DNA from: Paracoccaceae bacterium
GTDB taxonomy: Bacteria; Pseudomonadota; Alphaproteobacteria; Rhodobacterales; Rhodobacteraceae
Length of the DNA: 59,111 bases
Assembly (NCBI GenBank): GCA_003567315.1
Contig: PWZT01000048.1
Coordinates: 1-59,111, forward strand
Reading direction: 5' to 3'
Shown: piece after piece, positions 17,751 to 50,554 of the stretch
How positions within the stretch are numbered: the stretch's first letter is position 1
How the letters are laid out: the number at the start of each line of letters is the position of its first letter
Made by a program: the position numbers and the translations under genes
Notes under the pieces: generated by a model
What the model saw: the letters and a program-made list of their open reading frames with translations, nothing else
The model's database searches: none
Told to the model about the DNA's origin: nothing

Positions 17751-17772
17751 TTCATCTTGCCATAAATACTCC
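17751..17772 (+). repeat. Dispersed 20-bp element, copy 2
   Basis: TTCATCTTGCCATAAATACTCC begins 6 bases after the argG stop codon. A GAGGCG/CGCCTC hairpin (17778-17794) follows and could end the argG transcript. Same orientation relative to its gene as the copies after tusA, murI and paaG. Confidence 0.85.
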
Positions 17773-17822
17773 CGCCGGAGGCGCACATCGCCTCTGGCAC
17801 CCCGCCACAGAAAGGGCTTGCC

Positions 17823-19337
17823 ATGACCAGACCTGTTGTCCTGTGCATCCTCGACGGCTGGGGGCTGTCGCCCGAGATCGAAGGCAACGCGGTCGCGCAG
17901 GCTCAGACCCCGCATTTCGACCATGTGATGCAGAACTGCCCAAGCGCGACCCTTACCACGCATGGCCCCGATGTAGGTTTGCCCACCGGGCAGATGGGCA
18001 ATTCTGAAGTCGGCCATACGAATATCGGCGCGGGTCGCGTGGTGGCCATGGATCTCGGCCAGATCGATCTGGCCATCGAGGATGGCAGCTATACGCAAAG
18101 CGCCGCGTTTGGGTCCTTCATCGAGAAGCTGCGCGACACGGGCGGGCATGCGCATCTGATGGCGCTTGTCTCGGATGGTGGTGTGCACGGGCATATCAAC
18201 CATCTGAAAGTCACCGCGCGGCTTCTGGTCGAGGCGGGTGTGCCGGTCATCATCCACGCCATGACCGATGGTCGGGACGTCGCGCCGCGCTCGGCAAATT
18301 CCTTTCTGCGCGATCTGGAGGCCGATCTGCCCGAGAATGCGCGCATCGGCACCGTCATCGGGCGCTACTATGCGATGGACCGTGACCATCGCTGGGAGCG
18401 GGTGCAGCGCGCGTGGCAGGCGATCATGCGCGGCGAAGGTCATGGCGCGGGCAATGCGGCCGAGGCTGTTGCTGCGGCCTATGCGCGCGGCGAAACCGAT
18501 GAATTCATCGCGCCGACTGTGTTGGAAGGGTTCAGCGGGGCGAAACAGGGCGATGGCGTGTTCTGCCTGAATTTCCGTGCCGACCGCGCGCGCGAGATTC
18601 TGGCCGCGCTTTGCGCCCCGAGTTTCAACGGCTTTGATCGCGGGCAGGATCCGGCCTGGGCGGGCTGTCTGGGGATGGTGGAATACTCGGATTCGCATAA
18701 TGCGTTTCTGGGCGCTGTCTTTCCCAAGCGCGAGATCCGCAACACCTTGGGCGCGTGGGTTGCCGCGCATGGCTTGCGCCAGTTCCGGCTGGCCGAGACC
18801 GAGAAATACCCGCATGTGACCTTCTTCCTGAATGGCGGCAAGGAAGAGGCTGAAGACGGCGAAGAGCGGCATATGCCCGCGAGCCCCAAGGTCGCGACCT
18901 ATGATCTGCAGCCGGAGATGGCCGCGCCCGAAGTTGGCGCGAAGCTGGTCGAGGCGATCAGGCAGGGGTTTGATCTGATCGTGGTGAATTTCGCCAACCC
19001 CGACATGGTCGGCCACACGGGCGATCTGGCGGCCGCGATCCGCGCCTGCGAGGCGGTCGATGCACAACTCGGTGCAGCGCTGGAGGCCCTGGAACAGGTC
19101 GGCGGGGTAATGCTGCTCACGGCAGATCACGGCAATTGCGAAACCATGATCGACCCCGATAGTGGCGGCCCGCACACGGCGCATACGATCAATCCGGTCC
19201 CGGTCGTGTTGATCGGCGGGCCGGAGGAAGGCTCTCTGCGCGACGGGCGCCTCGCGGATGTCGCGCCGACTGTGCTGGCGCTGATGGATCTGCCCCCACC
19301 GCCCGAGATGACAGGCGAAAACCTGTTGAGCACATGA
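17823..19337 (+). CDS. gpmI: 2,3-bisphosphoglycerate-independent phosphoglycerate mutase
   Basis: A 504-residue alkaline-phosphatase-superfamily enzyme interconverting 3- and 2-phosphoglycerate. Metal ligand Asp11 (LDGWG), catalytic Ser61 (GQMGNSEVGHTNIGAGR), AMTDGRDVAPRS, and C-terminal NFANPDMVGHTG and TADHGNCE motifs are all present, so the two-manganese site looks complete. First gene of a plus-strand run: its stop overlaps the envC-like start by 4 bases. This order with envC, ctpA and rppH recurs in alphaproteobacteria. Confidence 0.97.
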   Translation: MTRPVVLCILDGWGLSPEIEGNAVAQAQTPHFDHVMQNCPSATLTTHGPDVGLPTGQMGNSEVGHTNIGAGRVVAMDLGQIDLAIEDGSYTQSAAFGSFIEKLRDTGGHAHLMALVSDGGVHGHINHLKVTARLLVEAGVPVIIHAMTDGRDVAPRSANSFLRDLEADLPENARIGTVIGRYYAMDRDHRWERVQRAWQAIMRGEGHGAGNAAEAVAAAYARGETDEFIAPTVLEGFSGAKQGDGVFCLNFRADRAREILAALCAPSFNGFDRGQDPAWAGCLGMVEYSDSHNAFLGAVFPKREIRNTLGAWVAAHGLRQFRLAETEKYPHVTFFLNGGKEEAEDGEERHMPASPKVATYDLQPEMAAPEVGAKLVEAIRQGFDLIVVNFANPDMVGHTGDLAAAIRACEAVDAQLGAALEALEQVGGVMLLTADHGNCETMIDPDSGGPHTAHTINPVPVVLIGGPEEGSLRDGRLADVAPTVLALMDLPPPPEMTGENLLST

Positions 19338-20437
19338 TGCGAAGCCTCATAGCCCTGTGTGCTGCGTGTATCTGGGCCACAGGCGCGATGCCCGACACGG
19401 CCGCCGAACGCGCCATGGCGGCGGCGCGCGAGCTGGAGGCCGCGACGGTAGCCTTGCAGGAGGCGAGCACCAGCCGCGATCAGATCGCAGCCCTCACGCA
19501 GACCATTCGGTCCTATGAGGAAGGCATGGTCAGCCTGCGTGACGGGTTGCGTGCCGCGCAGCTCGAGGAAGCGGCGCTGGAGCAGGAATTCGCCGCGCGC
19601 GGGGCAGAGCTTTCGCGTCTGTTGTCGGTCCTGATGGCAACCGACCGCGTCGATGACAGCCTGGCCTTCCTGCATCCCGATGGCGCGTTGGAGACCGCGC
19701 GCGCCGCGATGCTCCTGTCGGAGATTACGCCCGAGCTTGCGCAGGAAGTCGCGACATTGCGCGAGGCGCTGGAGGATCTCGCCGCCGTGCGTCGGGCAAG
19801 GCAATTCGGGCTGCTGGCGTTGGAGCAGGGGCTTGCGACCGCGCAGGAGGCGCGGGTCACGCTGTCGCAGGCGGTCTCGGACCGCGGCCCGTTGCCCAAA
19901 CGCTTGTCGGATGACCCGGAGCAACTCGAAGCGTTGGCGCGCAACGCTGCGACATTGAGCGATTTCGCCAGCGAAATGTCCGAACGCCCAAGCGCCGCGG
20001 AGGCGCAGACCGCCCGCGGTTTTCGCGATGCGCGCGGGCAGTTGGACTTGCCAGTGCGCGCGCGGCTGATTCATGGGTTCAACCAGCCCGATGCGGCCGG
20101 GATCCCGCGCGACGGGCTGGTGCTTGCGACATTGCCCGAGGCGCTGGTCACAACCCCGTGGTCGGCGACCGTGCGCTATGCCGGGCCGCTGGCGGGATCG
20201 GGGCTTGTCGTCATCCTAGAGCCGGTTGAGGATATGCTTCTGGTTCTCGCGGGGCTCGGGGGCGTGCTGGTCGAGAATGGAGAGATATTGCCCATGGGCG
20301 CCCCCATCGGCATGATGCCCGAAGCCCAGCCGGGCGCGGGTGCGACTGGCAACCTGAGCCAAACACTCTATTTTGAGATGCGCGAGGGGGGTGACCCCAT
20401 TGACCCGGAGCCCTGGTTCGCATTCACTGCGGGCTGA
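19334..20437 (+). CDS. EnvC-like murein hydrolase activator, degenerate LytM domain
   Basis: A 367-residue exported protein with a signal peptide (about 1-19), a long coiled coil (about 22-190, rich in Ala, Glu and Gln heptads) and a C-terminal LytM/M23 fold (about 240-367). The M23 metal ligands are not seen: where a peptidase has H-x(3)-D and H-x-H, this reads LIHGFNQPDAAG and LYFEMREGGDPIDPEPW. Catalytically dead LytM proteins such as E. coli EnvC activate amidases at the division site. It overlaps gpmI (ATGA) and precedes ctpA by 60 bases. Confidence 0.88.
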   Translation: MMRSLIALCAACIWATGAMPDTAAERAMAAARELEAATVALQEASTSRDQIAALTQTIRSYEEGMVSLRDGLRAAQLEEAALEQEFAARGAELSRLLSVLMATDRVDDSLAFLHPDGALETARAAMLLSEITPELAQEVATLREALEDLAAVRRARQFGLLALEQGLATAQEARVTLSQAVSDRGPLPKRLSDDPEQLEALARNAATLSDFASEMSERPSAAEAQTARGFRDARGQLDLPVRARLIHGFNQPDAAGIPRDGLVLATLPEALVTTPWSATVRYAGPLAGSGLVVILEPVEDMLLVLAGLGGVLVENGEILPMGAPIGMMPEAQPGAGATGNLSQTLYFEMREGGDPIDPEPWFAFTAG

Positions 20438-20497
20438 ACTCACATACGACGCTTTCGCCCGATAAGGGGGCAGGGAGGGTCTGGATAGGACAAGAGC

Positions 20498-21832
20498 ATG
20501 AACAGATTCGTAATGGCAACTCTCGGTGGCATTCTGGGCGGGGCCTTGCTTGCAACCCAGATCGCTGCGCCCTTGCTGGCAGAAGAGCGGCTGCGATCCA
20601 CGACCGTCTATGAACAGCTCGACCTGTTCGGTGATGTGTTCGAGCGCATACGCAACCAGTATGTCGACGAGCCCGATACCGCGAAACTGATCGAGGCCGC
20701 GATCAACGGCATGCTGATGTCGCTCGACCCGCATTCAGGCTACATGCCGCCCGACGATTTCGACGACATGCGCACTCAGACGCGCGGCTCCTTCGGCGGG
20801 CTCGGGATCGAGGTGACGCAGGAAGATGGCTTCATCAAGGTGGTCACGCCGATGGATGATACGCCTGCCGACAAGGCGGGCGTCGAGCCGGGCGACACGA
20901 TCACGCATGTGGATGGAGAGTCGCTGATGGGGCTGACGCTCGGCCAGGCCGTTGATCTGATGCGCGGCCCTGTCGGCTCGGAGATCATCATCACTGTCGT
21001 GCGCGAGGGTGAGTCGGAACCCTTCGACCTGTCGATCATCCGAGACACGATCCGGGTGCAGGCCGTGCGGACACGTGTCGAGGATGATCTGATCATCCTG
21101 CGCGTGACGACTTTCAATGAGCAGACATTCCCCAATCTGCGCGACGGGCTGGAAGAAGCCATCGAAGACCTGGGTGGTATCGACAATCTGGGCGGTGTCG
21201 TGCTGGATCTGCGCAACAATCCCGGCGGCTTGCTGACGCAGGCGGTCAGCGTGACGGATGCGTTCCTTGATCAGGGTGAGATTGTCTCGACCCGTGGTCG
21301 CGAGGAAGGCGCGGGCGAGCGCTTCAACGCGCAGGCAGGTGATCTGATCGACGGAAAACCAATCGTCGTGCTGATCAATTCCGGCTCTGCCTCGGCCTCG
21401 GAAATTGTGGCGGGCGCGCTTCAGGATCATCGTCGCGCCATAGTGGTAGGGACGCGCAGCTTCGGCAAGGGCTCGGTACAGACAGTCATGCCGCTGCGCG
21501 GCGATGGCGCGATCCGATTGACTACATCGCTCTACTACACGCCCTCGGGCCGGTCGATCCAGGCGCTTGGCGTGTCGCCCGATATCGTGGTGGAACAACC
21601 TCGCCGCGCCCCGATCGAGCAAGACGAGGCCGACGAAGCTCCGGCAGTCCGGTCCGAGAATGACCTGCGCGGGCGGCTCGACAACCGGGATATGTCCGAG
21701 GATGAGCGGCGTCAGATGGAAGACGAGCGGCGCCGGGCCGAGGAAGCGGCGAAGCTGCGCGAAGAGGATTACCAGCTCGCCTATGCGCTGGATATTCTGC
21801 GCGGCCTGACAGCGTTGAACTCACAGCGATGA
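20498..21832 (+). CDS. ctpA: C-terminal processing serine protease, S41 family
   Basis: A 444-residue periplasmic protease with an N-terminal signal or anchor ([23 protein letters not shown]). A PDZ domain spans about 90-175 (GGLGIEV...[18 protein letters not shown]), and the S41 domain carries the Ser-Lys pair: Ser299 in GSASASE and Lys324 in SFGKGSVQ, 25 residues apart as in other CTPs. The C-terminus is a charged, Arg/Glu-rich helix (about 385-430). Such proteases trim secreted proteins and control peptidoglycan hydrolases, which fits the neighbouring EnvC-like gene. Its stop overlaps rppH (ATGA). Confidence 0.95.
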
Positions 21833-22314
21833 ACGCCGCCGCGCTGGACGCGCTGCCCTATCGCCCCTGCGTCGGGATCATGCTGATCAACGCGCAGGGG
21901 TTGATCTTTGCCGCGCAGCGCATCGACAGCCGGCAACCCGCCTGGCAGATGCCGCAAGGTGGGATCGATCCGGGCGAAAACCCCGGGCTTGCTGCCTTGC
22001 GTGAGCTTGAAGAGGAAATCAGCGTTACGCCTGATCTGGTCGCCCCGCTCGCGGAAACGCGCGATTGGCTGCGCTACGATATCCCGCCCGAGATGGTGCC
22101 GAATATCTGGGGCGGGAAATTTCGCGGACAGAAGCAACGCTGGTTCCTGATGCGCTATCTCGGGCGCGACGATCAGATCGATCTTGCAACCTCGCATCCA
22201 GAATTTTCCGAATGGCGCTGGATTGCGGCCGATGACATGCTCGCGGCCATCGTGCCTTTCAAGCGTGACATTTATCAGCAGGTCATTTCAGAGTTCCGCG
22301 ACTGGCTGGCCTGA
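21829..22314 (+). CDS. rppH: RNA 5'-pyrophosphohydrolase
   Basis: A 161-residue NUDIX protein of the RppH/NudH clade. The NUDIX box is at about 45-67 ([23 protein letters not shown]), preceded by WQMPQGG, and the family motif [27 protein letters not shown] is clear. RppH removes pyrophosphate from triphosphorylated mRNA 5' ends and so starts decay. It is the last gene of the gpmI run and overlaps ctpA by 4 bases; it converges with the RDD gene, with 6 bases between stops. Confidence 0.95.
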
Positions 22315-22320
22315 GCGGCT

Positions 22321-22755
22321 TCAATCGGGGGCCATGGTGTGCAGCATGGTCGTGTTCAGCAGATAATCATGCAAGCCCTGCCGATACGGGGAAATCAGGA
22401 TCATCGCGATCGAAGCGATCTGGAGCGGGAAGACGGTCCAGAGTGCGGCATGCATCCCGCTATAGGCGAGCGCCGCGGTCGGGTCGGGCGCGCGGCCGTC
22501 CATATGGCGCCATTTCAGCGCAGTCAGCATCATCCCCAAGGTCGCGCCATATTTCGCAAGCATCACCGTGCGATAAGCGATGGATATGGCGGCAAACAGC
22601 ACCGGGAAGAAGAACGCGCCGATGAAGAGGGTGAAGACCAGACCGACGAGGGTCAGCGCGAGAGTCACGACCAGGTCCACCGCCCATGCAAGTGCACGTT
22701 TGATTGGCACATCGCGGTAGAATTCGGGAAGTAGTACCGGGTCGGGCAGGGTCAT
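22321..22755 (-). CDS. RDD family integral membrane protein
   Basis: A 144-residue membrane protein with three hydrophobic segments (about 20-45, 46-66 and 100-125). Motif residues of the RDD family are present: R and D near the first helix (KRALAWAVDLVV) and the late SPYRQGLHDYLLNT stretch, close to the family's R-x-x-x-HD signature. Function in bacteria is mostly unknown. Its start overlaps the YbaK stop by 4 bases. Confidence 0.85.
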   Translation of the reverse strand: MTLPDPVLLPEFYRDVPIKRALAWAVDLVVTLALTLVGLVFTLFIGAFFFPVLFAAISIAYRTVMLAKYGATLGMMLTALKWRHMDGRAPDPTAALAYSGMHAALWTVFPLQIASIAMILISPYRQGLHDYLLNTTMLHTMAPD

Positions 22756-23219
22756 TCCACAAAATCCGCAGGCTGGGCGTTTATCAGCTTCATAAGGACC
22801 TGCGGATCGATTGAAAAGACATGGCGCGGTGTACCAGCCGCGGCCCAGACCTGATCGAACTCCAGAAGCCGCGGGTCCATCCAGATGGGCGAGGGCGAGA
22901 GATGCCCCAGCGGCGACACCCCGCCAATGGCAAAGCCCGTGGTCGCCCGCACAAGATTGGCATCCGCGCGCCCGAGCGCCTCACCGGCAAGCGCCGACGC
23001 TTTCGCAGTGCAGATGCGGTTACCGCCTGCCGTCAGAAACAGGCGGATCGCGCCGGATTCTTCGCCTGCGAAGATGATCGACTTCACGATCTGATCGAGC
23101 GCGCAGCCGCAAGCATTCGCGGCCTGCTCGGCGGTGCGGCTCTCGCCCGCCTCCATGATCGTGTCGGGCAGACCCGCCTCCTCAAGGGCGCGGGCCACGC
23201 GTTTGAGTGATTTGCTCAT
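22752..23219 (-). CDS. YbaK/EbsC-type aminoacyl-tRNA deacylase
   Basis: A 155-residue protein of the YbaK/ProX editing family. Recognisable parts are AANACGCALDQIVKSIIF, the conserved lysine in that strand, LTAGGNRICTAK, and TTGFAIGGVSPLGH, the G-x-x-P loop of the editing site. The family hydrolyses mischarged tRNAs in trans, for example Cys-tRNA(Pro) or Ala-tRNA(Pro). The exact tRNA target is not determinable. It is coupled to the RDD gene and lies 3 bases from the aminotransferase stop. Confidence 0.9.
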   Translation of the reverse strand: MSKSLKRVARALEEAGLPDTIMEAGESRTAEQAANACGCALDQIVKSIIFAGEESGAIRLFLTAGGNRICTAKASALAGEALGRADANLVRATTGFAIGGVSPLGHLSPSPIWMDPRLLEFDQVWAAAGTPRHVFSIDPQVLMKLINAQPADFVE

Positions 23220-23222
23220 GGC

Positions 23223-24539
23223 TCAGTCGAGCGCATCCAGAACCTCGCCCAGCGTGCCGATCAACTGGTCGATATGGGATTTCTCGATGATCAGCGGGGG
23301 CGACATGGCGATGATGTCGCCGGTGGTGCGGATCAGCACGCCTTTCTCATAGGCCTTGAGGAAGGCCGAGAAAGCCCGCTGGGTGGGTGCGCCTGCAATG
23401 GGCTCCAGTTCCACCGCGCCGATCAGGCCCATATTGCGGATGTCGATGACATGCGGTTTGCCGCGCAGCGAATGCACGGCGTCTTCCCAGTAGGGCGCGA
23501 GGTCCGCGCAGCGTTCGAACAGCCCTTCCTCCTGATAGGTCTCCAGCGTCGCAAGCCCGGTGGCTGAAGCGATGGGGCTGCCGGAATAGGTGTAGCCGTG
23601 GAACAGCTCGATCAGATGCTCGGGACCTTGCATGAACGCATCGTGGATCGCCGCCGAGGTCAGCACTGCACCCATCGGGATCACGCCATTGGTCAGCCCC
23701 TTGGCGCAGGTGATCATGTCGGGCAGCACATCGAAATGCTGGGCCGCGAAGGGGCTGCCGAGGCGCCCGAAGCCGGTAATGACCTCGTCGAAGATCAGCA
23801 GGATGCCATGCTTTGCCGTGATCTCGCGAAGACGCTGCAGATAGCCTTTGGGGGGCAGCAGCACGCCGGTCGAACCCGCGACCGGTTCCACGATCACGGC
23901 GGCGATCGTTTCGGCGCCGTGCAGGGCAACCATGCGCTCAAGCTCGTCGGCCAGATGCGCGCCGTGCTCGGGCTGGCCGCGCGTCCACTGGTTCTCGGGG
24001 ATATGGGTGTGCGGCAAGTGATCCACACCCGACAGCATGGTACCGAAATGGCGGCGGTTATTGACGATTCCACCCACCGAGATCCCGCCGAAATTCACGC
24101 CATGATAGCCCCGCTCGCGCCCGATCAGACGGGTGCGCGACGCGTCACCGCGCGCGCGGTGATAAGCGATTGCGATCTTGAGCGCGGTCTCGACCGCCTC
24201 GGACCCGGAATTGACGAAAAAGGCGTAATCGATGCCATCCGGGGCGAGATCGACCAGCCGGTTGGCCAGCTCGAAGGCTTTGGGGTGGCCCATCTGAAAG
24301 GCGGGCGCGTAATCAAGTTCGGTCGCCTGTTTCTGGATGGCTTCGGTGATCTTCGGGCGCTTGTGACCTGCATTGCAGCACCATAGTCCAGCGGTGCCAT
24401 CGAGCACCTGCCGCCCGTCGGAGGTGGTGTAGAACATGCCCTCGGCCTCGACCAGCATGCGCGGGGCGGCCTTGAACTGACGGTTCGCCGTGAACGGCAT
24501 CCAGAAGGCGCGCAGGTCATTCGGGCGGTCGAGGGCCAT
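23223..24539 (-). CDS. Class III (omega) aminotransferase, beta-alanine/pyruvate type
   Basis: A 438-residue PLP enzyme of the class III fold. Seen: LWCCNAGHKRPKI, VNSGSEAVETALKIA (cofactor phosphate loop), ERGYHGVNFGGISVGG, LIFDEVITGFGRLG (Asp binding the pyridine nitrogen) and the PLP lysine in TCAKGLTNGVIPMGAV. Overall sequence resembles omega-amino acid:pyruvate transaminases. The amino donor cannot be fixed. It lies in the same orientation as the LysE and TRAP genes upstream, so a shared role in importing and deaminating an organic acid or amino acid is plausible. Confidence 0.92.
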   Translation of the reverse strand: MALDRPNDLRAFWMPFTANRQFKAAPRMLVEAEGMFYTTSDGRQVLDGTAGLWCCNAGHKRPKITEAIQKQATELDYAPAFQMGHPKAFELANRLVDLAPDGIDYAFFVNSGSEAVETALKIAIAYHRARGDASRTRLIGRERGYHGVNFGGISVGGIVNNRRHFGTMLSGVDHLPHTHIPENQWTRGQPEHGAHLADELERMVALHGAETIAAVIVEPVAGSTGVLLPPKGYLQRLREITAKHGILLIFDEVITGFGRLGSPFAAQHFDVLPDMITCAKGLTNGVIPMGAVLTSAAIHDAFMQGPEHLIELFHGYTYSGSPIASATGLATLETYQEEGLFERCADLAPYWEDAVHSLRGKPHVIDIRNMGLIGAVELEPIAGAPTQRAFSAFLKAYEKGVLIRTTGDIIAMSPPLIIEKSHIDQLIGTLGEVLDALD

Positions 24540-24603
24540 GATTCAGACTCCATTGAATTTGATCAAAAGACGCTATCAGAACTGCGCCACGTGACAAGGG
24601 GGG

Positions 24604-25203: not shown

Positions 25204-25245
25204 CTGCCTTCATGAACGGCTCGGGGCGCGCCCGCCGGGGGCGCG

Positions 25246-31525: not shown

Positions 31526-31787
31526 CAGCCATGACCCGAAAGGGCTGATCCGCGAAAGCTACCGTATAGAGGGAATTTCTGACGCCGAATGCCGCTCGAT
31601 CCTGATCGACTGGGCGCTGAGCCTGCCTTCCGAGATCGACCAGAGCGCAGCGCTCACAGCGCTTCTGGAGCGCCACGGAACAGAGCAGTCGGACCATCCG
31701 ATGACCCGCTTGCTGAAAGAGGGGCAGCACATGTCCGCGCCACGGCGCGGGCGACGGCGCCGCGAGGGCCAGGCCGATGCAGGCTGA
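31518..31787 (+). CDS. Small conserved-looking protein of unknown function between glnE and tusA
   Basis: An 89-residue soluble protein. Residues 5-65 look folded and helical (GLIRESYRIEGISDAECRSILIDWALSLPSEIDQSAALTALLERHG); the tail is strongly basic (MSAPRRGRRRREGQ), perhaps nucleic-acid-binding. The ATG at 31518 has GGAG 9 bases before it; earlier in-frame TTG 31503 and ATG 31509 are less likely. It overlaps glnE by 8 bases and tusA by 11 bases, so its translation is coupled to both. I do not recognise a family. Confidence 0.75.
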   Translation: MPDSHDPKGLIRESYRIEGISDAECRSILIDWALSLPSEIDQSAALTALLERHGTEQSDHPMTRLLKEGQHMSAPRRGRRRREGQADAG

Positions 31788-32004
31788 TGTCGAGATTGAT
31801 GCCATCGGGCTTCTCTGCCCGCTCCCGGTGCTCAAGGCGCGCAAGCGGCTGAAAGCCATGCGCCCGGGAGAAGTGCTTTGCGTGCTGGCGAGTGATCCGG
31901 CCGCCGTGGTCGATATCCCGCATTTCTGTGCCGAGGCAGGCCATCAGCTTCTGACAACTGAAGAGCGCAACGATGCCACGGCCTATTTCATCCGCCACGC
32001 CTGA
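31777..32004 (+). CDS. tusA: TusA family sulfur carrier protein
   Basis: A 75-residue protein of the TusA/YeeD/SirA fold. The signature DAIGLLCPLPVLKARKRLKAM contains the CPxP motif with the persulfide-accepting Cys14. In E. coli TusA carries sulfur from IscS toward tRNA 2-thiouridine; other members serve molybdenum cofactor or sulfur oxidation. A second cysteine (HFC, about residue 50) is conserved in many. Coupled by overlap to the small gene upstream. Its stop is directly followed by the dispersed element. Confidence 0.9.
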   Translation: MQADVEIDAIGLLCPLPVLKARKRLKAMRPGEVLCVLASDPAAVVDIPHFCAEAGHQLLTTEERNDATAYFIRHA

Positions 32005-32005: not shown

Positions 32006-32028
32006 TTTCATCTTGCCTTAAATACTCC
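32006..32028 (+). repeat. Dispersed 20-bp element, copy 3
   Basis: TTTCATCTTGCCTTAAATACTC and a further C start 2 bases after the tusA stop. Followed by a GC-rich hairpin at 32038-32055. Same orientation relative to the gene as copies 2, 4 and 5. Confidence 0.85.
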
Positions 32029-32037
32029 GGGGTGAAT

Positions 32038-32072
32038 GGCCGGGCCTGCCCGGCCAGAGGGGCAGCGCCCCT
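32038..32072. terminator. Paired GC-rich hairpins between convergent genes
   Basis: GGCCGGGC/GCCCGGCC (32038-32055) and AGGGGC/GCCCCT (32058-32072) lie between the convergent tusA and DUF1638 genes. The stems are strong but T-runs are absent, so they may be bidirectional barriers or 3' end protectors rather than classical intrinsic terminators. Confidence 0.5.
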
Positions 32073-42708: not shown

Positions 42709-42791
42709 TCCTGGTTTCCGCCCAACGGGCTGGAATGATTTCAAGAATCTTGCTTCTGATGCGCGCGCACGACGTCACGGGCGTCAGTATG

Positions 42792-42807
42792 CAATTGTAT
42801 CCAATTG
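42792..42807. promoter_or_regulatory. CAATTG-TATC-CAATTG repeat upstream of small membrane gene
   Basis: Two CAATTG hexamers separated by TATC form a 16-bp inverted repeat, 94 bases before the ATG of the 58-residue gene. It lies in an AT-rich stretch that ends in an 8-10 base T-run (42819 on). Could be an operator; no regulator is implied. Confidence 0.3.
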
Positions 42808-42900
42808 AAAACATGCATTTTTTTTTGCAGTTTTTCTGATCTGTAGCGCCCAATGCTGCGTAAGCAAAAGCATGACGAAAACAAGAGAAGGAGAACTGAC

Positions 42901-43077: not shown

Positions 43078-43122
43078 AACAATACAGACTCTTTTCGTGT
43101 GGAATAGCTTTTCGAGTGGATT

Positions 43123-43153
43123 GCCGTGGCCAGAGATGGTCACGGCTTTTTTT
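43123..43153 (+). terminator. Intrinsic terminator of the 58-residue gene
   Basis: A 9-bp stem (GCCGTGGCC with GGTCACGGC, one G-U pair), 6-base loop AGAGAT, followed by seven T residues. Textbook form. Confidence 0.9.
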
Positions 43154-43531
43154 GATTCGGGGGCGGGCAGGTTCAAATCGGAACGCTTCAAAGAAAAAAT
43201 GTGCTGCGTACCCACCTCATGGGCTTACTGCCTGTATTCGGGCAGGCTGCGGAGCAAAGTAGCAGAAAAATAACCCGGCACTGGTGCGGCGCGCGGAAAT
43301 CCGACAGTGGGCCATGTGGATTGCAAAAAATCGACAAAAAAAGGCCGAGCACGAGGCTCGGCCAAAGTCCAACAGGGAGGTAAGACGCGAGACTACGTCA
43401 ATCACGCCTTGCCCTGTGATATGGTATTGCCCATCAATTACGCAAGTTAAATTATTCTGCACACGCAACATTGCCGGTATGCGTTGCATACATGCCTCAT
43501 TTCTTGGTTGTATACGGTCCCGCCAGATCGC
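43154..43531. other. Gene-poor interval with a minus-strand terminator
   Basis: Together with 43078-43153 this is a 454-bp stretch without a protein gene. It contains an inverted repeat GCCTG/CAGGC (near 43230-43248) and the strong minus-strand terminator at 43336-43363. The 165 bases between that terminator and the LysR stop have no good reading frame; they could be a long LysR 3' end or a small RNA. Confidence 0.5.
43336..43363 (-). terminator. Strong minus-strand intrinsic terminator
   Basis: GGCCGAGC (43343-43350) pairs with GCTCGGCC (43356-43363) around a 5-base loop; on the minus strand it is followed by seven T residues. It is about 170 bases past the lysR stop, unusually far for a simple 3' end. 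Confidence 0.85.
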
Positions 43532-44425: not shown

Positions 44426-44524
44426 CTGGCAATATCCGTCAAAAGCATTTCGGCAATCAGATATGTTTCGTTCTAGAGGCTTTTGCCTGATCACAAAAGC
44501 GCAGAAAGCCAAGATTTTGCTTTG

Positions 44525-44545
44525 TAGGTCAGAAATATTGACCTA
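44525..44545. promoter_or_regulatory. Perfect palindromic operator upstream of the oxidoreductase gene
   Basis: TAGGTCA - 7 bases - TGACCTA, 42 bases before the ATG of the indolepyruvate oxidoreductase. It overlaps a candidate -10 box TATGAT (44544-44549). The arms fit a T-n11-A-like LysR box loosely, though the 7-7-7 form also suits other dimeric regulators. Confidence 0.6.
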
Positions 44546-44549
44546 TGAT
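44544..44549 (+). promoter_or_regulatory. Candidate -10 box of the oxidoreductase gene
   Basis: TATGAT matches TATAAT at five of six positions. A weak TTGTAG lies 16 bases upstream. A start near 44556 would leave a leader of about 30 bases. The overlapping palindrome would cover the promoter. Confidence 0.4.
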
Positions 44550-44586
44550 CGTTTCATACGCAACAAGGCATTGGGAGGTGCAGCGG

Positions 44587-47500
44587 ATGTGGCAGGATAT
44601 CTCGCTTCAGGACCGGTTCGATATCGAAAAATCGCCCGTGCTATTGAACGGTACGCAAGCGATGGTGCGGCTGATGCTGGCGCAGGCCGCGCGAGACAGA
44701 GCGGCTGGGCTGAACACGGCTGGCTATGTCACGGGCTATCGCGGCTCGCCGCTCGGGGCCGTGGATCTGCAGATGAGCCGCGCGCGCAAACTGCTCGCGG
44801 CATCGCAAGTGCGCTTTCAGGAAGGGCTGAACGAAGATCTGGCCGCGACGGCGCTCTGGGGCACGCAGCAGGCCGAGTTGCGGGGTGAGGGGCGGTACGA
44901 TGGCGTTTTCGGCCTCTGGTATGGCAAAGGGCCGGGCGTGGACCGTAGCGGTGATGTGTTCCGCCATGCCAATATGGCGGGTAGCTCGCCGCATGGCGGC
45001 GTGCTGGTCGCTATGGGGGATGATCACACGGGTGAATCCTCCACGACGCTGCACCAATCCGACTGGGCCATGGTTGATGCCTATATCCCGGTGCTCTCGC
45101 CTGCGGGGGTGCAGGAAATCCTCGATTATGGCCATTACGGCTATGCGCTGTCGCGCTTCGCGGGCGTCTGGGTCGGGCTCAAGACGATGAAGGACACGGT
45201 CGAGGCGACGGCTGTCGTCGATGGCGACCCGCACCGGATGCAGTTCGTCACTCCCGACTTCACCATGCCCGAGGGGGGGCTGAACATCCGGCTGGTTGAC
45301 ACGCCTGTCGCGCAGGAAGCGCGGATGATCGACTACAAGCGCTTCGCCGCCGAGGCATTCAGCCGCGCCAATGGCATGGACAAGCGCGTCTACGGCAAAC
45401 CGGGTGCCAAGATCGGTCTGGTCGCGGCAGGCAAGAACTGGCTCGATCTTGTCCATGCGCTCTCGCTGCTGGGCATCGGCGCGCAAGAGGCCGAGCGGCT
45501 TGGCATCACCACCTACAAGGTCGGGCAGACCTGGCCGCTGGACATGGAAGGCTTCCACGAATGGGCCGAAGGGCTCGAACTGATCATCGTGGTCGAGGAG
45601 AAGCGCAAGCTGATCGAAGTGCAGGTCAAGGAAGCGATTTTCGATGACCGCCGCGGGCGCCGGGTCTATGGCTGGCACAAGGGCGATACCTGGGAACATG
45701 GCCGCCAGCTTGAGCTTTTCCCCACCCGTTACGCGCTCGATCCCATCACAATCGCCGAGAAACTGGGCGAAATCCTCATCGAAGAGGGTCGTGGGACGGA
45801 TCGTGTGAAAGCTGGTCTCGCTAATCTGGCCGAGGCACGGCGCGCCGACAATGCTCCCGAACTCGCCGCGCGCCTGCCCTATTACTGCTCGGGCTGCCCG
45901 CATAACACCTCGACGAAAGTCCCCGAGGGCCACCGCGCCTATGCGGGTATCGGCTGTCACTACATGGTGCAGTGGATGGACCGAAATACGGTTGGCTTCA
46001 CCCAGATGGGTGGCGAGGGCGCGAACTGGATCGGCGAGGCGCCGTTCTCGACCCGCGAGCATGTGTTCCAGAACCTTGGCGACGGCACCTATAACCATTC
46101 GGGCGTGCAGGCCATCCGCGCAGCCCTCGCGGCAGGCACCAACATCACCTACAAGATCCTCTATAACGATGCGGTCGCCATGACCGGCGGGCAGAAGAAC
46201 GAGGGTGGCCTCTCGCCCGACCAGATCGCGCATGAGCTAGCGGCGATGGGTGTGGGCAAGATCGAGGTCGTGTTCGATGAAAAAGAAGAGCCCAAACGCG
46301 GCGATTTTCCGAAATCCGTGGGCTGGCACCCCCGCGCCGATATGGAGGCCGTGCAGAAGGATTGCGCAACGCATAAAGGCGTCTCGGTCATCATCTATGT
46401 GCAGACCTGCGCCGCCGAGAAACGCCGCCGCCGCAAGCGCGGTGAATTTCCGGACCCCGACACCCGTGTCTTCATAAACCCAGATGTCTGCGAAGGTTGC
46501 GGCGATTGCGGGGTGCAGTCGAATTGCGTCTCGATCGTGCCGGTCGAGACCGAATTCGGTCGCAAGCGCGCGATCGACCAATCCTCCTGCAACAAGGATT
46601 ACTCCTGCCTCAAGGGTTTCTGCCCGTCCTTCATCACGCTCGAAGGTGCCAAGCCCCGCAAGCCCGCCACGCAATCCGTGGACCTGCCCGATCTGCCTGT
46701 GCCGGAGCTGCCGCAGATCGATGGCACCCATAACATTGTCATCACCGGGGTAGGGGGCACAGGCGTCGTCACTGTGGGTGCGATCCTCGCGCAGGCTGCA
46801 CAGCTTGATGACAAGGGCGCGGGCGTGATCGAGATGGCCGGGCTCGCGCAGAAGGGCGGCGCAGTGCATATCCATTGCCGCATCGCCAACCGGCCCGAAG
46901 ATATATCCGCCATCCGCGTCGCCGTGGGGGAGGCGCATTGCGTCATCGGTGGTGATCTGGTGGTGACCGCCGGGGCCAAGACGCTCGGGCTGATGCGCAA
47001 GGGCCAGACCGGCGCGGCAGTGAACAGCCATGAGATCATCACGGGCGAATTCACCCGCAATACGGAATTCCGCATCCCCGGCGAAGATCTGCAACTTGCC
47101 CTGCAATCGCGCCTCGGCGAGCGGGTGCATCTTTTCGACTATTCCGAGCTTGCCAAGCGACTGCTCAGTGACAGCATCTTCTCCAACATGATGCTTCTCG
47201 GCGCGGCTTGGCAGATGGGGCTCGTGCCACTGAGCGAAGCAGCGATCCATCGCGCCATCGAGTTGAACGGCGCAGCCGTTGAGCGCAACACTCGCGCTTT
47301 CGCGCTGGGACGCTGGAGCGTTGTGGATCCCAAGGCGGCCGCGAAGACACTTGCGGATAACGTATCGCGAAAGCCGTTTTCACTGGATGAAAAAATCAGG
47401 CTGCGCGAAGAACATCTTGTGGTCTACCAGTCCAAACGTCTGGTCAAGCGCTTCCGCAAACTTTTGGACAAAGCCCCGGATGATCGGCTCAGAGAGGCGA

Positions 47501-48000
47501 TTGCGAAAGGGTATCACAAGCTGCTCACCTACAAGGACGAGTATGAGGTTGCCCGGCTGCATCTCGACAGCCTGCAAAAGGCCAATGCCGAGTTCGAGGG
47601 CGATTTCATCCCGCGCTTCCACCTTGCCCCGCCCTTGCTGTCGCGCATGGGCTCGGATGGCCGCCCGGTCAAGCGCAGTTTCGGGCCATGGATCATGAAG
47701 GGTTTCAAGCTGCTCTCCCGGATGAAGTCCCTGCGCGGCACGCCGCTCGATCCCTTCGGCTACACGGCCGAACGGCGCATGGAGCGGCGGCTGATCCGCG
47801 AGTATGAGGCGCTGATTTCGGAGATACTGCCGCAAGTCACAGCCGAAAATCATCAGCTTGCCGTCGAACTCGCCGAACTCCCGCTGCAGATCCGCGGCTT
47901 CGGTCCGGTGAAGCACCGCAATGCCGAAGCCGCCGCCAAACGCCGCGCGGAATTGCGCGCAGCCTTTGACGCGCAACCAACGCCCATGGCCGCGGAATAG
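44587..48000 (+). CDS. Indolepyruvate:ferredoxin oxidoreductase, fused large form
   Basis: A 1,137-residue single-chain enzyme joining the IorA (thiamine diphosphate) and IorB (gamma) parts. Order: pyrimidine-binding domain (GYVTGYRGSPLGAVD), central domain, thiamine diphosphate domain (SGCPHNTSTKVPEGHRAYAGIGCHYMVQWM and GEGANWIGEAPF), ferredoxin-like cysteines (CEGCGDCGVQSNC...C near 634-675), then the gamma domain (ITGVGGTGVVTVGAILAQAAQLDDKG). It oxidatively decarboxylates aryl-pyruvates to aryl-acetyl-CoA, reducing ferredoxin. ATG 44587 is chosen for GGGAGG upstream; an earlier start at 44545 lies on the palindrome. Controlled probably by the divergent LysR. Confidence 0.92.
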   Translation: MWQDISLQDRFDIEKSPVLLNGTQAMVRLMLAQAARDRAAGLNTAGYVTGYRGSPLGAVDLQMSRARKLLAASQVRFQEGLNEDLAATALWGTQQAELRGEGRYDGVFGLWYGKGPGVDRSGDVFRHANMAGSSPHGGVLVAMGDDHTGESSTTLHQSDWAMVDAYIPVLSPAGVQEILDYGHYGYALSRFAGVWVGLKTMKDTVEATAVVDGDPHRMQFVTPDFTMPEGGLNIRLVDTPVAQEARMIDYKRFAAEAFSRANGMDKRVYGKPGAKIGLVAAGKNWLDLVHALSLLGIGAQEAERLGITTYKVGQTWPLDMEGFHEWAEGLELIIVVEEKRKLIEVQVKEAIFDDRRGRRVYGWHKGDTWEHGRQLELFPTRYALDPITIAEKLGEILIEEGRGTDRVKAGLANLAEARRADNAPELAARLPYYCSGCPHNTSTKVPEGHRAYAGIGCHYMVQWMDRNTVGFTQMGGEGANWIGEAPFSTREHVFQNLGDGTYNHSGVQAIRAALAAGTNITYKILYNDAVAMTGGQKNEGGLSPDQIAHELAAMGVGKIEVVFDEKEEPKRGDFPKSVGWHPRADMEAVQKDCATHKGVSVIIYVQTCAAEKRRRRKRGEFPDPDTRVFINPDVCEGCGDCGVQSNCVSIVPVETEFGRKRAIDQSSCNKDYSCLKGFCPSFITLEGAKPRKPATQSVDLPDLPVPELPQIDGTHNIVITGVGGTGVVTVGAILAQAAQLDDKGAGVIEMAGLAQKGGAVHIHCRIANRPEDISAIRVAVGEAHCVIGGDLVVTAGAKTLGLMRKGQTGAAVNSHEIITGEFTRNTEFRIPGEDLQLALQSRLGERVHLFDYSELAKRLLSDSIFSNMMLLGAAWQMGLVPLSEAAIHRAIELNGAAVERNTRAFALGRWSVVDPKAAAKTLADNVSRKPFSLDEKIRLREEHLVVYQSKRLVKRFRKLLDKAPDDRLREAIAKGYHKLLTYKDEYEVARLHLDSLQKANAEFEGDFIPRFHLAPPLLSRMGSDGRPVKRSFGPWIMKGFKLLSRMKSLRGTPLDPFGYTAERRMERRLIREYEALISEILPQVTAENHQLAVELAELPLQIRGFGPVKHRNAEAAAKRRAELRAAFDAQPTPMAAE

Positions 48001-48072
48001 GCGCAAACGGGCTGGATCTTCACCCGCCCCGGCTCTATGCAGGAACAGATTTCTTGCGCCGGAGGCGGACAA

Positions 48073-48885
48073 ATGGCAGTGGGCGTTTTCGATTCTGGCC
48101 TTGGAGGGCTGACTGTTCTTGGTGCGGTCACCGAGCGCATGCCCGAAATTCCCTTTGTCTATCTGGGAGATAACGCCCATACCCCTTATGGGGTGCGCGA
48201 TGCAGATGACATCTTCGCCCTGACCTGCGCGGGGGTAGAGCGACTGTGGGAGGAAGGCTGCGATCTGGTCATCCTCGCCTGCAACACGGCCTCTGCCGCA
48301 GCCCTCAAGCGGATGCAGGAGACATGGGTGCCGGGGGACAAGCGCGTCCTCGGTGTCTTCGTGCCACTGATCGAGGCGCTCACCGAACGCCAATGGGGCG
48401 ACAATTCGCCCCCGCGCGAGGTCGCGGTCAAGCATGTCGCACTCTTCGCCACCCCCGCCACTGTCTCCAGCCGCGCGTTTCAGCGCGAACTCGCCTTCCG
48501 CGCCATCGGCGTCGATGTCGAGGCCCAGCCTTGCGGCGGGGTGGTCGATGCGATCGAGATGGGCGATATGCAATTGGCCGAAGCGCTGGTGCATTCCCAT
48601 GTCGAGGCGCTCTTGCGCCGCATGCCGCGCCCCGAGGCGGCCGTGCTTGGCTGCACGCATTACCCCCTCGTCGAAGATGCGTTCCGCGAAGCACTCGGCC
48701 CCAAGGTCGATGTCTATTCGCAACCCAAACTCGTCGCGGCCAGCCTCGAGGATTACCTGCAGCGCCGCCCCGAGATGCTGGGCACAGGCAAGGAAAGCGC
48801 CTTTCTGACCACCGGCGCGCCGGTCAATGTCTCGCGCAAGGCCACGCAATTTCTGCGACGACAGATCAGCTTTCGCGCCGCCTGA
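48073..48885 (+). CDS. murI: Glutamate racemase
   Basis: A 270-residue cofactor-independent racemase making D-glutamate for peptidoglycan. Both catalytic cysteines are present: Cys70 in LACNTAS and Cys194 in LGCTHYP, with the [11 protein letters not shown] motif at 6-16. Start ATG 48073 follows GGAGG; a longer frame from 48037 is less likely. It follows the oxidoreductase by 72 bases. The dispersed element begins 2 bases after its stop. Confidence 0.96.
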
Positions 48886-48886
48886 G

Positions 48887-48909
48887 TTTCATCTTGCCCA
48901 AAATACTCC
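48887..48909 (+). repeat. Dispersed 20-bp element, copy 4
   Basis: TTTCATCTTGCCCAAAATAC followed by TCC starts 2 bases after the murI stop codon. It precedes a small CGCT/AGCG hairpin (48920-48929) and ends 56 bases before argC. Confidence 0.85.
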
Positions 48910-48964
48910 CGCGCGGAGCGCTTGAGCGATCAGCCGCGCCGCGCGACGTTTCAGGAGAATGACC

Positions 48965-49993
48965 ATGACCAAATCCATCGCCATTCTGGGCGCCTCGGGC
49001 TATACGGGCGCCGAACTGGTGCGCCTGATCGCCACCCATCCCGAATTTCGCATCGCCGCATTGACCGGCGAGCGCAAGGCAGGCCAGCCAATGGCGCAGG
49101 TCTTCCCGTTCCTGCGCCATCTCGACCTGCCGGATCTGTGTCGCATCGAGGAGGTCGATTTCGCGCAGGTAGATCTTGCCTTTTGCGCCCTGCCGCATGC
49201 AACATCGCAAGCCGTGATCAAGGAGTTGCCGCGCGATCTGAAGATTGTCGATCTCTCCGCTGATTTCCGTCTGCGCGACCCGGCAGCGTATGAAAAATGG
49301 TACGGCAAGCCGCATGCCGCGCCCGAATTGCAGCGCGAGGCCGTCTATGGCCTGACCGAGTTCTACCGCGACGATATACGCGCGGCGCGACTTGTCGCGG
49401 GCACGGGCTGCAACGCGGCAACGGGTCAGTATATCCTGCGCCCGCTGATCGAGGCGGGGGTGATCGATCTCGACCGCATCATCCTCGATCTGAAATGCGG
49501 GGGTTCGGGCGCTGGACGTGCGCTCAAGGAAAACCTGCTGCATGCCGAATTGTCGGAAGGCACGCAGGCCTATGCCGTTGGCGGCACGCACCGGCATCTG
49601 GGTGAGTTCGATCAGGAATTCAGCGCGCTTGCAGGGCGGGAGGTCCGGATTCAATTCACACCGCATCTGTTGCCCATGAACCGGGGTATCCTTGCGACAG
49701 CCTGGCTGGATGGGGATGCGCATAGGGTTCACGAAGTTTTGCAGGGCCGTTATTGCGCTGAATCAATGATATGCGTGCTACCTTTTGGCACAACACCCTC
49801 GACTCATGATGTGCGCGGCTCAAATTTCGTGCATATTGGAGTGGTTGGAGATCGCATCCCGGGGCGGTGCATTGTGGTCGGTGCGCTTGATAACCTGTGT
49901 AAAGGATCCAGCGGGCAGGCCATCCAGAATGCGAATCTGATGCTGGGACTGGAAGAGACAGCGGGCCTCATGGGCGCGCCGATCTTTCCCTGA
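48965..49993 (+). CDS. argC: N-acetyl-gamma-glutamyl-phosphate reductase
   Basis: A 342-residue NADPH-dependent enzyme of arginine synthesis. The Rossmann motif [16 protein letters not shown] is at the N-terminus. The active-site cysteine is Cys149 in [13 protein letters not shown], the alphaproteobacterial variant of the usual NPGCYPT; the histidine is in [14 protein letters not shown] lies 8 bases before the ATG at 48965; an ATG at 48959 would have too short spacing. Followed by ccmE after 14 bases, so the two are probably co-transcribed. Confidence 0.95.
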
Positions 49994-50007
49994 CGTGAGA
50001 GGAACGA

Positions 50008-50475
50008 ATGAAAAGTCTGAAGAAAAAGCGTCGAATACAGATCATTTCGGTCGCCGCAGTGGCGCTGGCCTTGTCGACCGCGCTGATCGGTTACGCGATG
50101 CGCGACGGGATCAATTTTTTCATGTCCCCATCGCAGGTTCTGGCCGAGCCGCCGTCCCCCAATGAGGTCTTCCGCATCGGCGGGCTGGTGGAGCCGGGCT
50201 CGATCGTTCGCGGTCAGTCGGATACGGTCGTGTTTCGCGTGACGGATGGGCCGGGGTCGGTCGAAGTGCGCTATCGCGGCATCCTGCCGGATCTGTTCTC
50301 GGAGAATGAGGGCATGGTCGGGACAGGGCGCTTTGTTGATGGTGTGTTTCAGGCAAGCGAAATTCTTGCAAAGCATGACGAGACCTACATGCCGCGCGAA
50401 GTCATGGAAGCCTTGAAGGCGCAGGGCGAATGGCACGGTCCAGACCCTGAAAGCCTGCCTGAGCCGCAGAGCTGA
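50008..50475 (+). CDS. ccmE: Cytochrome c maturation heme chaperone CcmE
   Basis: A 155-residue periplasm-facing heme chaperone. An N-terminal anchor helix (about 10-30) is followed by the OB-fold (FRIGGLVEPGSIVRG ... VRYRGILPDLFSENEG ... ASEILAKHDETYMP). The heme-attaching histidine is His123 and the axial tyrosine is Tyr127. CcmE receives heme from CcmCAB and hands it to CcmF-CcmH. It is directly behind argC; its partners ccmF and ccmH are 1 kb away on the opposite strand. A strong terminator follows. Confidence 0.96.
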   Translation: MKSLKKKRRIQIISVAAVALALSTALIGYAMRDGINFFMSPSQVLAEPPSPNEVFRIGGLVEPGSIVRGQSDTVVFRVTDGPGSVEVRYRGILPDLFSENEGMVGTGRFVDGVFQASEILAKHDETYMPREVMEALKAQGEWHGPDPESLPEPQS

Positions 50476-50499
50476 AAAAGCGCGCGATGCGTGAGACAG

Positions 50500-50533
50500 A
50501 CCGCTCCTGCGTCGCAGAGGGCGGTTTTTTTTT
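50500..50533 (+). terminator. Intrinsic terminator of argC-ccmE
   Basis: ACCGCTC and GGGCGGT arms enclose an inner CTGC/GCAG stem (one bulged A), followed by nine T residues. It lies 25 bases after the ccmE stop and runs straight into dispersed-element copy 5. Confidence 0.88.
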
Positions 50534-50554
50534 GAGTATTTTTGGCAAGATGAA
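50534..50554 (-). repeat. Dispersed 20-bp element, copy 5
   Basis: Plus strand reads GAGTATTTTTGGCAAGATGA. Seen from the minus-strand paaG-like gene it is the CATCTTGCC orientation starting about 9 bases after the stop, as for copies 2-4. It sits between the ccmE terminator and that stop. Confidence 0.85.

Follow-up and report, generated by a model that had tools for sequence, protein, structure and literature searches.

The DUS of the Neisseriaceae and the USS of the Pasteurellaceae are words whose spelling holds genome-wide; the consulted sections of two papers describe several spellings per family and two in one genome (PMC3630211, PMC1852404). In Acidovorax ebreus, the motif GCTTAT(N)5AAGCG is present near genes in 114 copies, of which 107 are intergenic: 44 between convergent, 4 between divergent and 59 between co-oriented genes (PMC5217627, section consulted). 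We describe here a word of 21 letters, (C/T)TTCATCTTGC-NNN-AAATACTC, in which two fixed blocks of 10 and 8 bases are separated by three free bases. It was noticed in a stretch of 59,111 nucleotides of a Paracoccaceae bacterium (assembly GCA_003567315.1, here G000; contig PWZT01000048.1, positions 1 to 59,111), and "the window" means this whole stretch.

Like DUS and USS, this is a single over-represented word in each genome, spelled in related ways in relatives, and it shares with them inverted pairs at gene ends and a connection with terminators (compare the parts consulted of PMC3630211 and PMC1852404). Its fixed bases, in two blocks, number 18 and theirs about 9-12; it has roughly 100 copies (107 in G000, 203 in Paracoccus methylarcula) where they have about 1000 or more; and it differs further by its rarity inside genes and by a fold on one fixed side. 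REP/BIME repeats with their RAYT resemble it by about 100 dispersed intergenic copies, inverted pairs and species-specific families (PMC2817692, part consulted). However, the palindromic unit of REP/BIME is lacking, the 21-base core being devoid of self-complementarity by inspection while the fold sits beside it; the RAYT-type transposase (Y1_Tnp/RAYT, PF01797) is without a match in 9 of 12 genomes, G000 included, and over cut-off in 2; and orientation, often also position, is kept within the genus of G000 while the letters change. The Acidovorax figures are nearly equal to those of our word (43 convergent, 1 divergent, 51 co-directional), but the sequence is unrelated, the host belongs to another class of bacteria, and the section consulted (PMC5217627) contains neither spellings nor an orthologous comparison. 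An intrinsic (Rho-independent) terminator shares with the word a GC-rich hairpin followed by the T-rich GAGTATTT in one direction, the fold preceding GAGTATTT in the copies of classes B and C. Unlike such a terminator, the word has 18 near-invariant bases, beyond the T-tract, and a poor T-run, it is found in both orientations behind genes, and its class D (36 of 96 copies) has no marked fold. In the one open-access library searched we recognised no paper describing this element, and the parts consulted of PMC8632094 and PMC5107571 hold nothing on it.

Results

When up to 3 mismatches to CATCTTGCCNNAAATACTCC are allowed, the window contains 5 copies (Table 1), whereas shuffling gives an expectation of 0.01 and none of 100 shuffles reached 5. 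The original prediction had listed five intergenic copies and held that they could not be due to chance; it was right on both counts, its coordinates being correct within 3 bases, and the phenomenon is larger than it had noted. The four neighbours that it named (argG, tusA, murI and a paaG-like gene) are given by gene calls and Pfam as argG, TusA, the Asp/Glu racemase family and an enoyl-CoA hydratase, and copy 1, which it had set apart, is indeed the exception. As for the bases that it called invariant, 17 of them (CATCTTGCC and AAATACTC) are common to all five copies, but two variable positions were too few: base 9 differs in 12 of 18 listed one-mismatch copies, which means that it is free and that the spacer has three bases. 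The final C of the earlier 20-base pattern is an A in both minus-strand copies of the window. Copy 1 has AT before CATC and is the sole one of 99 genome copies without TT there. The four copies that are sense to the preceding gene lie 4-10 nt from its stop, or 2-8 nt when one counts from the extended TTC start. Copy 5 adjoins a full terminator.

Table 1. Copies of the word in the window, with adjoining sequences and genes
Feature	Position	Strand	Remarks
Copy 1	1183..1203	-	CATCTTGC-CAA-AAATACTC; antisense, ~60 nt behind sufE; pattern match 1182-1201
Copy 2	17751..17771	+	TTCATCTTGC-CAT-AAATACTC; 5 nt behind argG stop; pattern match 17753-17772
Class A tail CCGCCGGAGGCG	17772..17783	+	after copy 2; also behind argG in three same-spelling congeners
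Copy 3	32007..32027	+	TTCATCTTGC-CTT-AAATACTC; 2 nt behind tusA stop; pattern match 32009-32028
Class C tail	32028..32072	+	GC-rich, self-complementary; AAATACTC side of copy 3
Copy 4	48888..48908	+	TTCATCTTGC-CCA-AAATACTC; 2 nt behind murI-like stop; pattern match 48890-48909
Copy 5	50534..50554	-	TTCATCTTGC-CAA-AAATACTC; 8 nt behind enoyl-CoA hydratase stop; convergent with ccmE; pattern match 50533-50552
Intrinsic-terminator-like hairpin and 9 T	50500..50533	+	behind ccmE; directly abuts GAGTATTT of copy 5; read from sequence
argG	16507..17745	+	gene call and Pfam
tusA	31777..32004	+	gene call and Pfam (TusA)
murI-like gene, Asp/Glu racemase family	48073..48885	+	gene call and Pfam
Enoyl-CoA hydratase/isomerase gene	50563..51339	-	gene call and Pfam

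Over the whole assembly the exact copies number 78, and 107 copies are found when up to 2 mismatches are allowed, against 0 matches for the reversed pattern in the same genome, so that the excess looked for by the original prediction is present genome-wide. Genes were called with a home-made finder based on codon usage, for which the window was the training sequence, and called genes contain 3 of 99 copies. Among the 95 copies placed in G000, 43 are between convergent, 51 between co-directional and 1 between divergent genes, where one expects 10.1, 66.3 and 18.6 (P 1e-17 and 2.5e-8); the expectation was taken from 450 intergenic regions, which belong to the window and to 41 loci titled Rhodobacteraceae and some of which may themselves carry the word. 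Of 67 gaps from the stop to TTC, 29 do not exceed 12 nt, as compared to 11.5 after shuffling (0 of 5000 shuffles were as high), and among the 42 copies without class B tails, 33 have a gap of 1-16 nt. Hence, the link to stop codons is strong outside the window too. The original prediction had also placed the copies just behind the stop in one same orientation relative to the gene. This describes four window copies, and the association with 3' ends extends to the genome, but the orientation does not: co-directional gaps hold 24 sense and 27 antisense copies, which shows that the single orientation of the window is not general.

In seven other genomes, the fetched copies of the local spelling could be placed in 189 cases (75 convergent, 103 co-directional, 11 divergent), 2 further copies lying in called genes and 1 at an edge; the calls for G099 and G207 are less certain, as two models gave different results for 9 of 27 long genes in the former and 14 of 61 in the latter. 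The bias towards 3' ends is weaker in some of these genomes (divergent: 3 of 23 in G020, 2 of 16 in G099, 3 of 37 in G307), and on the plasmid of P. saliphilus convergent sites have 1 of the 9 intergenic copies, whereas they make up 22 of 123 regions. A gene model retrained on the loci of G307 put 13 copies in genes and 11 between divergent ones. Out of 39 long genes it matched the window-trained model for only 1; it had evidently learnt the wrong strand, and the window-trained calls were therefore used. Close pairs were head-to-head in 11 of 11 cases in the fetched sequence, and the match lists contain two tail-to-tail pairs.

The copies are nearly uniform in letters within a genome, as judged on those findable at up to 3 mismatches, and other spellings are found in related Rhodobacteraceae. 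In the congener G320, 56 of 59 matches are spelled TTCATCTTGG..AAATATCC and none has the spelling of G000. G291 has 79 exact copies out of 83 matches, 3 with one mismatch and 0 with two, while Paracoccus methylarcula has 203 matches and reads TTCTTCTTCA..AAATATCC in 95 of 100 among the matches listed. Two spellings with linked halves are present in G307 (39 and 57 of 100 among the matches listed), and Defluviimonas likewise has two. The impression, voiced in the original prediction, that similar sequences exist in other Rhodobacteraceae was well founded, with the reservation that many of them are spelled differently in each genome. Where the word is abundant, it reaches about 50-200 copies per genome. 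Its presence is patchy among relatives: one Paracoccus (Paracoccus sp. S1E-3) is apparently without it, which means that the word is dispensable, and 100 kb of the Ruegeria TM1040 megaplasmid show isolated word-like sites only. In Paracoccus versutus pBEN, the 50 kb of sequence carried no feature annotation.

At 18 orthologous gene ends of G000 and G320, the orientation of the word is kept in 18 of 18 despite the different spelling, and the stop distances agree within 6 nt in 10 of these pairs.

A folding signal is present on the AAATACTC side, with a median z of -2.46 in class B (a tail present in 32 copies of G000) and of -1.89 in class C, whereas the left side gives 0.38 and -0.08; the 36 of 96 copies that make up class D are without a marked fold (median z -0.67). 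In P. saliphilus, a word is present within 120 bp for 7 of the 9 copies of GCCATCGCGGGACGC. Of 64 sense ends, 3 have a canonical terminator, that is a hairpin and a T-run; the antisense ends have one in 13 of 67 cases, the two-copy ends in 0 of 2 and the word-free ends in 6 of 65, this last group coming mostly from co-directional gaps. This shows that the word is no simple substitute for canonical terminators. Behind argG, G000 and three congeners have the word and a class A tail, and G320 has a hairpin and TTTT instead. A replacement of canonical terminators by the word is thus suggestive at this one locus; genome-wide it is unsupported (sense ends 3/64, word-free ends 6/65).

Discussion

Our best guess, a tentative one drawn from the sequences, is that the word signals the end of a transcript to a factor dedicated to it. 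A role at 3' ends or in termination fits the position best; this was one of the candidates of the original prediction, which is borne out as far as position goes and not beyond. The fact that orientation is kept at orthologous ends while spelling differs implies a putative trans-acting, sequence-specific reader, which would co-evolve with the copies, and about 100 near letter-perfect sites, respelled at many of the same places in a congener, would need a reader able to change its sites together. Genomes with two spellings would then have two readers. The most likely function would be that of the word and hairpin together: read in the direction hairpin-GAGTATTT-NNN-GCAAGATGAA, they would be like an intrinsic terminator whose U-tract is poor, and the word-bound reader might there help the release of RNA polymerase or define the 3' end of the mRNA. 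Between convergent genes the word could serve as shared punctuation. The transcript-end model gives no account of genes whose stop is on the TTC side, and the 24 sense and 27 antisense copies between co-directional genes do not fit well with a signal on one strand. Moreover, some co-directional gaps with copies are of about 50 nt (locus L061), and a strong terminator there would cut off the downstream gene. With gaps of 1-6 nt, a plain roadblock terminator is a difficult fit, as the polymerase would probably halt before the stop codon.

One may go further and suppose a code of gene ends, in which a fast-evolving dedicated protein (or guide RNA) reads the 18-base bipartite word at about 50-200 gene ends, marking or terminating transcription, and in which the word is rewritten genome-wide together with its reader, two readers being present in some species; in this full form we find the proposal unlikely. 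The eukaryotic end-binding terminator proteins are not known to have a bacterial counterpart. Such a reader, if found, would show the genome-wide rewriting of a recognition code, and might reveal a new bacterial route to transcript ends or to the recognition of self DNA. Direct testing is possible in named strains with known spellings, namely Paracoccus methylarcula and P. saliphilus.

The word could instead be a self-DNA tag for transfer in the manner of DUS and USS: a receptor or packaging protein would prefer the DNA which bears it, its spelling would spread by biased recombination, and 3' ends would be the places where it does least harm. The descriptions of DUS/USS likewise include spellings that hold genome-wide, two of them per genome, inverted pairs located at gene ends, and the link with terminators (PMC3630211 and PMC1852404, in the parts consulted); spacing and strand are random; and on the P. 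saliphilus plasmid all 10 copies are in the first ~95 kb, with 0 in the remaining ~145 kb read, with trb conjugation genes. However, about 50-200 copies per abundant genome are far from 1000 or more, only 3 of 99 copies are inside called genes, and near-miss copies are few, as the 79 exact copies of G291 with 3 at one mismatch and 0 at two illustrate. We regard such a tag as possible, if rather unlikely, and the low copy number and the rarity inside genes also speak against the DNA-uptake tag proposed in the original prediction. None of 12 genomes has PilQ (TIGR02515) over the cut-off; as secretin matches below it are present in 11 of them and a single one of 14 control genomes gets past it, this absence counts little. 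We hold it improbable that the word is a non-autonomous mobile repeat (REP/BIME- or MITE-like) which inserts behind genes and of which each species has amplified its own family. The tails are repeated too (class B in 32 copies, GCCATCGCGGGACGC in P. saliphilus near a word in 7 of 9 cases), most close pairs stand head-to-head, a trait of BIME, and presence is patchy; but 18 bases are fixed while NNN and flanks vary, which is unlike copied DNA, positions and orientations are kept at orthologous ends of the genus despite respelling, the internal palindrome is lacking, and a search for Y1_Tnp/RAYT found no match in 9 of 12 genomes.

At the RNA level, a 3'-UTR element can be imagined whose sense and antisense copies, carried by different mRNAs, pair together or with one guide RNA, the partner enforcing the spelling. 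Any sense copy is in fact complementary to any antisense copy except in NNN, and head-to-head pairs could form an 18-bp hairpin with a 3x3 internal loop. The preference for convergent sites would nevertheless be unexplained, no locus for a guide RNA came to light, and no Rfam family at gathering score lies over the window copies (tRNA and SorX matched in the window, neither covering a copy), so that this reading seems to us very improbable. We give hardly any credence to a chromosome-organising site comparable to matS, KOPS or Noc sites: the copy number is plausible and the position non-coding, but the spacing is that of a random set in G207 and for both types of G307, and strand runs in G207 are 32 for 33 expected. 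In the genomes tested, this randomness of spacing and strand order disfavours the genome-organisation tag of the original prediction as well. An apparent run of "+" copies, suggestive of replication polarity (KOPS/chi-like), was a listing artefact, the full list of G207 being of mixed strand.

Finally we must note that G000 and G020 share a head-to-head pair at mccB-mccA, with the same NNN and a class A tail, base 10 differing in both copies. The impression left by a single locus, that NNN could be used as a mark of descent, was too strong, as NNN is weakly retained at orthologous ends: 28 of 54 letters are kept for G000 and G320 only, as compared to 24.5 (256 of 2000 shuffles were as high), and in the pooled pairs of different spelling 63 of 129 letters are kept, as compared to 53 after shuffling, 65 of 5000 shuffles being as high.

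The word at gene ends in its own genome

The five copies which the original prediction located in the window are indeed there, at positions right to within 3 bases, where 0.01 copies are expected in shuffled sequences. In the whole assembly (2,841,593 bases in 102 contigs, 90% complete), CATCTTGCCNNAAATACTC has 78 exact copies and 107 copies with at most two mismatches, while a reversed control pattern has no match. Single mismatches fall mostly at base 9 or at the T of ACTC (among the matches listed, 100 of 107). TT directly precedes the word in 98 of the 99 distinct copies with flanks read, drawn from the whole-genome searches and the window; copy 1 of the window is the exception. The consensus is better written (C/T)TTCATCTTGC-NNN-AAATAC(T/g)C.

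With genes called by a codon-usage gene finder, 43 of these 99 copies lie between convergent genes, 24 in sense and 27 in antisense between co-directional genes, 1 between divergent genes, 3 within called genes and 1 at a contig edge. For the 95 copies that could be placed (43 convergent, 51 co-directional, 1 divergent), the expectation is 10.1, 66.3 and 18.6, derived from 450 intergenic regions, each 30 bp or longer, in the window and in 41 loci taken to be Rhodobacteraceae. A sense stop codon is separated from the left-block end of the word (the TTC side) by 12 nt or less in 29 of 67 cases, versus 11.5 for random placement within the same region (0 of 5000 shuffles). Gaps this small are avoided on the opposite, AAATACTC side (2 of 70 versus 11.3). 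Outside tail class B (see the table), 33 of 42 sense copies start 1-16 nt behind the stop. The three copies inside called genes belong to loci L054, L074 and L075, near 1107-1501; L054 and L074 have similar-looking flanks, which could stem from paralogous coding stretches.

Respelling in other genomes

Searched exactly, this spelling occurs in 32 of 390 genomes of the order (21 of 139 genera). A search allowing three mismatches found respelled forms in many others, with no match in 2 of 46 genomes and few only in several. The word reads TTCATCTTGG..AAATACTC in genome G020 and TTCTTCTTGG..AAATACTC in G106, while G099 has both TTCATCTTGC..AAATACCT and TTCAT(C/T)GTGG..AAATACTC. Within the genus, 79 of the 83 matches in G291 are exact to our spelling; in G320, 56 of 59 matches read TTCATCTTGG..AAATATCC, three are unrelated, and none comes nearer to our spelling than three mismatches. 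In G307, left and right blocks are linked in two types, TTCATCTTTC..AAATACTC (39) and TTCCTCTTGC..AAATATCC (57), both counted among the matches listed, 100 of 106.

Twenty-five of 26 named genomes were searchable and 23 had matches; reversed controls gave 0-2 per strand. The match counts include Paracoccus methylarcula 203, Jhaorihella thermophila 172, Rhodovulum bhavnagarense 113, an Aliiroseovarius MAG 92, Defluviimonas sp. WL0075 52 (two types) and strain CCMM004 45; Rubellimicrobium roseum and Paracoccus sp. S1E-3 had 0. The letters were seen genome-wide for P. methylarcula, Aliiroseovarius, Defluviimonas and CCMM004, the other named genomes being known by counts alone. A word search that recovers the element in P. 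saliphilus gives nothing comparable for 258 kb of Paracoccus sp. S1E-3 or for smaller contigs of Sulfitobacter sp. F26204 (240 kb).

The gene-end rule is valid outside the own genome, yet less strict there, because the fetched local-spelling copies of seven other genomes comprise 75 convergent, 103 co-directional and 11 divergent placements (189 placed), besides 2 copies inside called genes and one at an edge; G320 alone gives 26, 25 and 3, and G020 7, 13 and 3. On the P. saliphilus plasmid (240 kb of 242,883 bp covered, NCBI annotation), a small sample of 10 local-spelling copies (8 co-directional, 1 convergent, 0 divergent, 1 inside an annotated gene) does not display the convergent excess, 22 of 123 regions being convergent and 25 divergent. 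All ten lie within the first ~95 kb (L405-L409); the remainder, including the trb conjugation genes, has none, as though it were recently acquired DNA without the word.

Orthologous gene ends

Matching the genes beside copies between genomes, we found 18 shared ends between the own genome and its congener G320 (18 of 55 G320 copies), where roughly 3 would be expected by chance, counting 136 flanking genes of an assumed ~2900. Orientation is identical in 18 of 18; stop distances agree within 6 nt in 10, the others differing by 33-84 nt. Elsewhere orientations are partly mixed (own genome with G307, 4 same and 2 opposite; with G020, 3 and 2; G207 with G307, 5 and 1), partly through crosswise matching of inverted pairs.

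The mccB-mccA gap holds a head-to-head pair in both the own genome and G020. The two genomes share NNN (TCC, CGA) and the class A tail but differ at base 10, where both copies have C in one genome and G in the other. Over all pairs of different spelling, NNN agreement is slightly above chance (63 of 129 letters versus 53 expected). A GCGTCGG-type short repeat, different from the word, stands behind mccB in L162, L182, L183, L185 and partly L193 (Rhodobacteraceae); a word-like sequence is present there in L193 too.

At the argG 3' end, compared in 30 genomes, the word with a class A tail stands 5-11 nt behind the stop in the own genome, G291, G134 and G258, and G320 has a hairpin and TTTT in its place. 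Among the other 25, G108 has TTCATCTTGG..AAATACTC, and in G207 a TTCACCTTCC..AAATACTC form follows a terminator; in the rest, no word was seen within the first 160 bases behind the stop.

Tails, folding and pairs

Tail classes of the 96 copies outside called genes, with median folding z-scores against mononucleotide shuffles
Class	Tail	Copies	z, AAATACTC side	z, TTC side
A	CCGCCGGAGG	6/96	-1.23	-0.59
B	longer repeat with GCGCGCC-GTCA-GGCGCGC hairpin	30/96	-2.46	0.38
C	G-run hairpin	19/96	-1.89	-0.08
D	A-rich, without marked fold	36/96	-0.67	0.09
Other		5/96	-0.42	0.34

A wider pattern assigns 32 copies to class B (L005-L089), a degenerate repeat that surrounds the word and extends over more than 100 bp; the hairpin has a compensatory change in L037 (GCGAGCC..GGCTCGC). 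In P. saliphilus, the 15-mer GCCATCGCGGGACGC (L405, L406) is a genome-specific tail family, with 7 of 9 occurrences at most 120 bp from the word.

In the fetched sequence, copies separated by 60 bp or less form 11 pairs, all of them head-to-head, TTC ends inward; the four combining different spellings are all from G020 and may include chance matches to a loose pattern. The matches listed contain further head-to-head pairs, among them three in P. methylarcula with an 11-bp gap, and two pairs that are tail-to-tail (G207 C3:690178/690231, G406 C11:411159/411222). Strand polarity was not seen in G207, nor regular spacing in G207 or G307. Between opposite-orientation copies in L002, L128 and L258, near 1500-1700, a CGGCACTCCTGCCTGTACCGCC-like region appears by eye to be conserved in three genera; it may be an unannotated small RNA.

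Possible role

Fresh insertion does not readily account for fixed blocks around a free spacer, varied flanks, an orientation kept at shared gene ends and a spelling that changes genome-wide. All of this would be expected if a putative trans-acting reader co-evolved with its sites; a genome with two linked spellings would then suggest two such readers. A mobile repeat accounts for the repeated tails, such as the P. saliphilus 15-mer, but leaves the kept positions unexplained, and most genomes tested gave no RAYT match. Respelling is best explained by a DNA-transfer tag, although copy number and rarity inside genes argue against one of known kind. PilQ carries no weight in this, since none of 12 genomes had a match over its cut-off and only 1 of 14 control genomes passed it. 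From the arrangement of the copies we favour a role in transcript-end formation, because of the convergent and 3' preference, the scarcity of divergent placements and the one-sided fold. The evidence speaks against a simple terminator, however: both orientations are equally numerous, copies sit in short co-directional gaps, and a full terminator adjoins copy 5 of the window.

The nearest published pattern that we found is the Acidovorax ebreus motif GCTTAT(N)5AAGCG, described without a known function; its intergenic copies comprise 44 convergent, 4 divergent and 59 co-oriented ones (PMC5217627). DUS dialects (PMC3630211), USS in terminators (PMC1852404) and REP/RAYT (PMC2817692), as portrayed in the relevant portions of those papers, each resemble part of the picture. 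One open-access library yielded no recognisable description of the word.

The window also contains, at 43337-43393 on the reverse strand, an Rfam match to SorX (singlet oxygen resistance RNA X, RF02784), at 48 bits versus a gathering score of 46.6.
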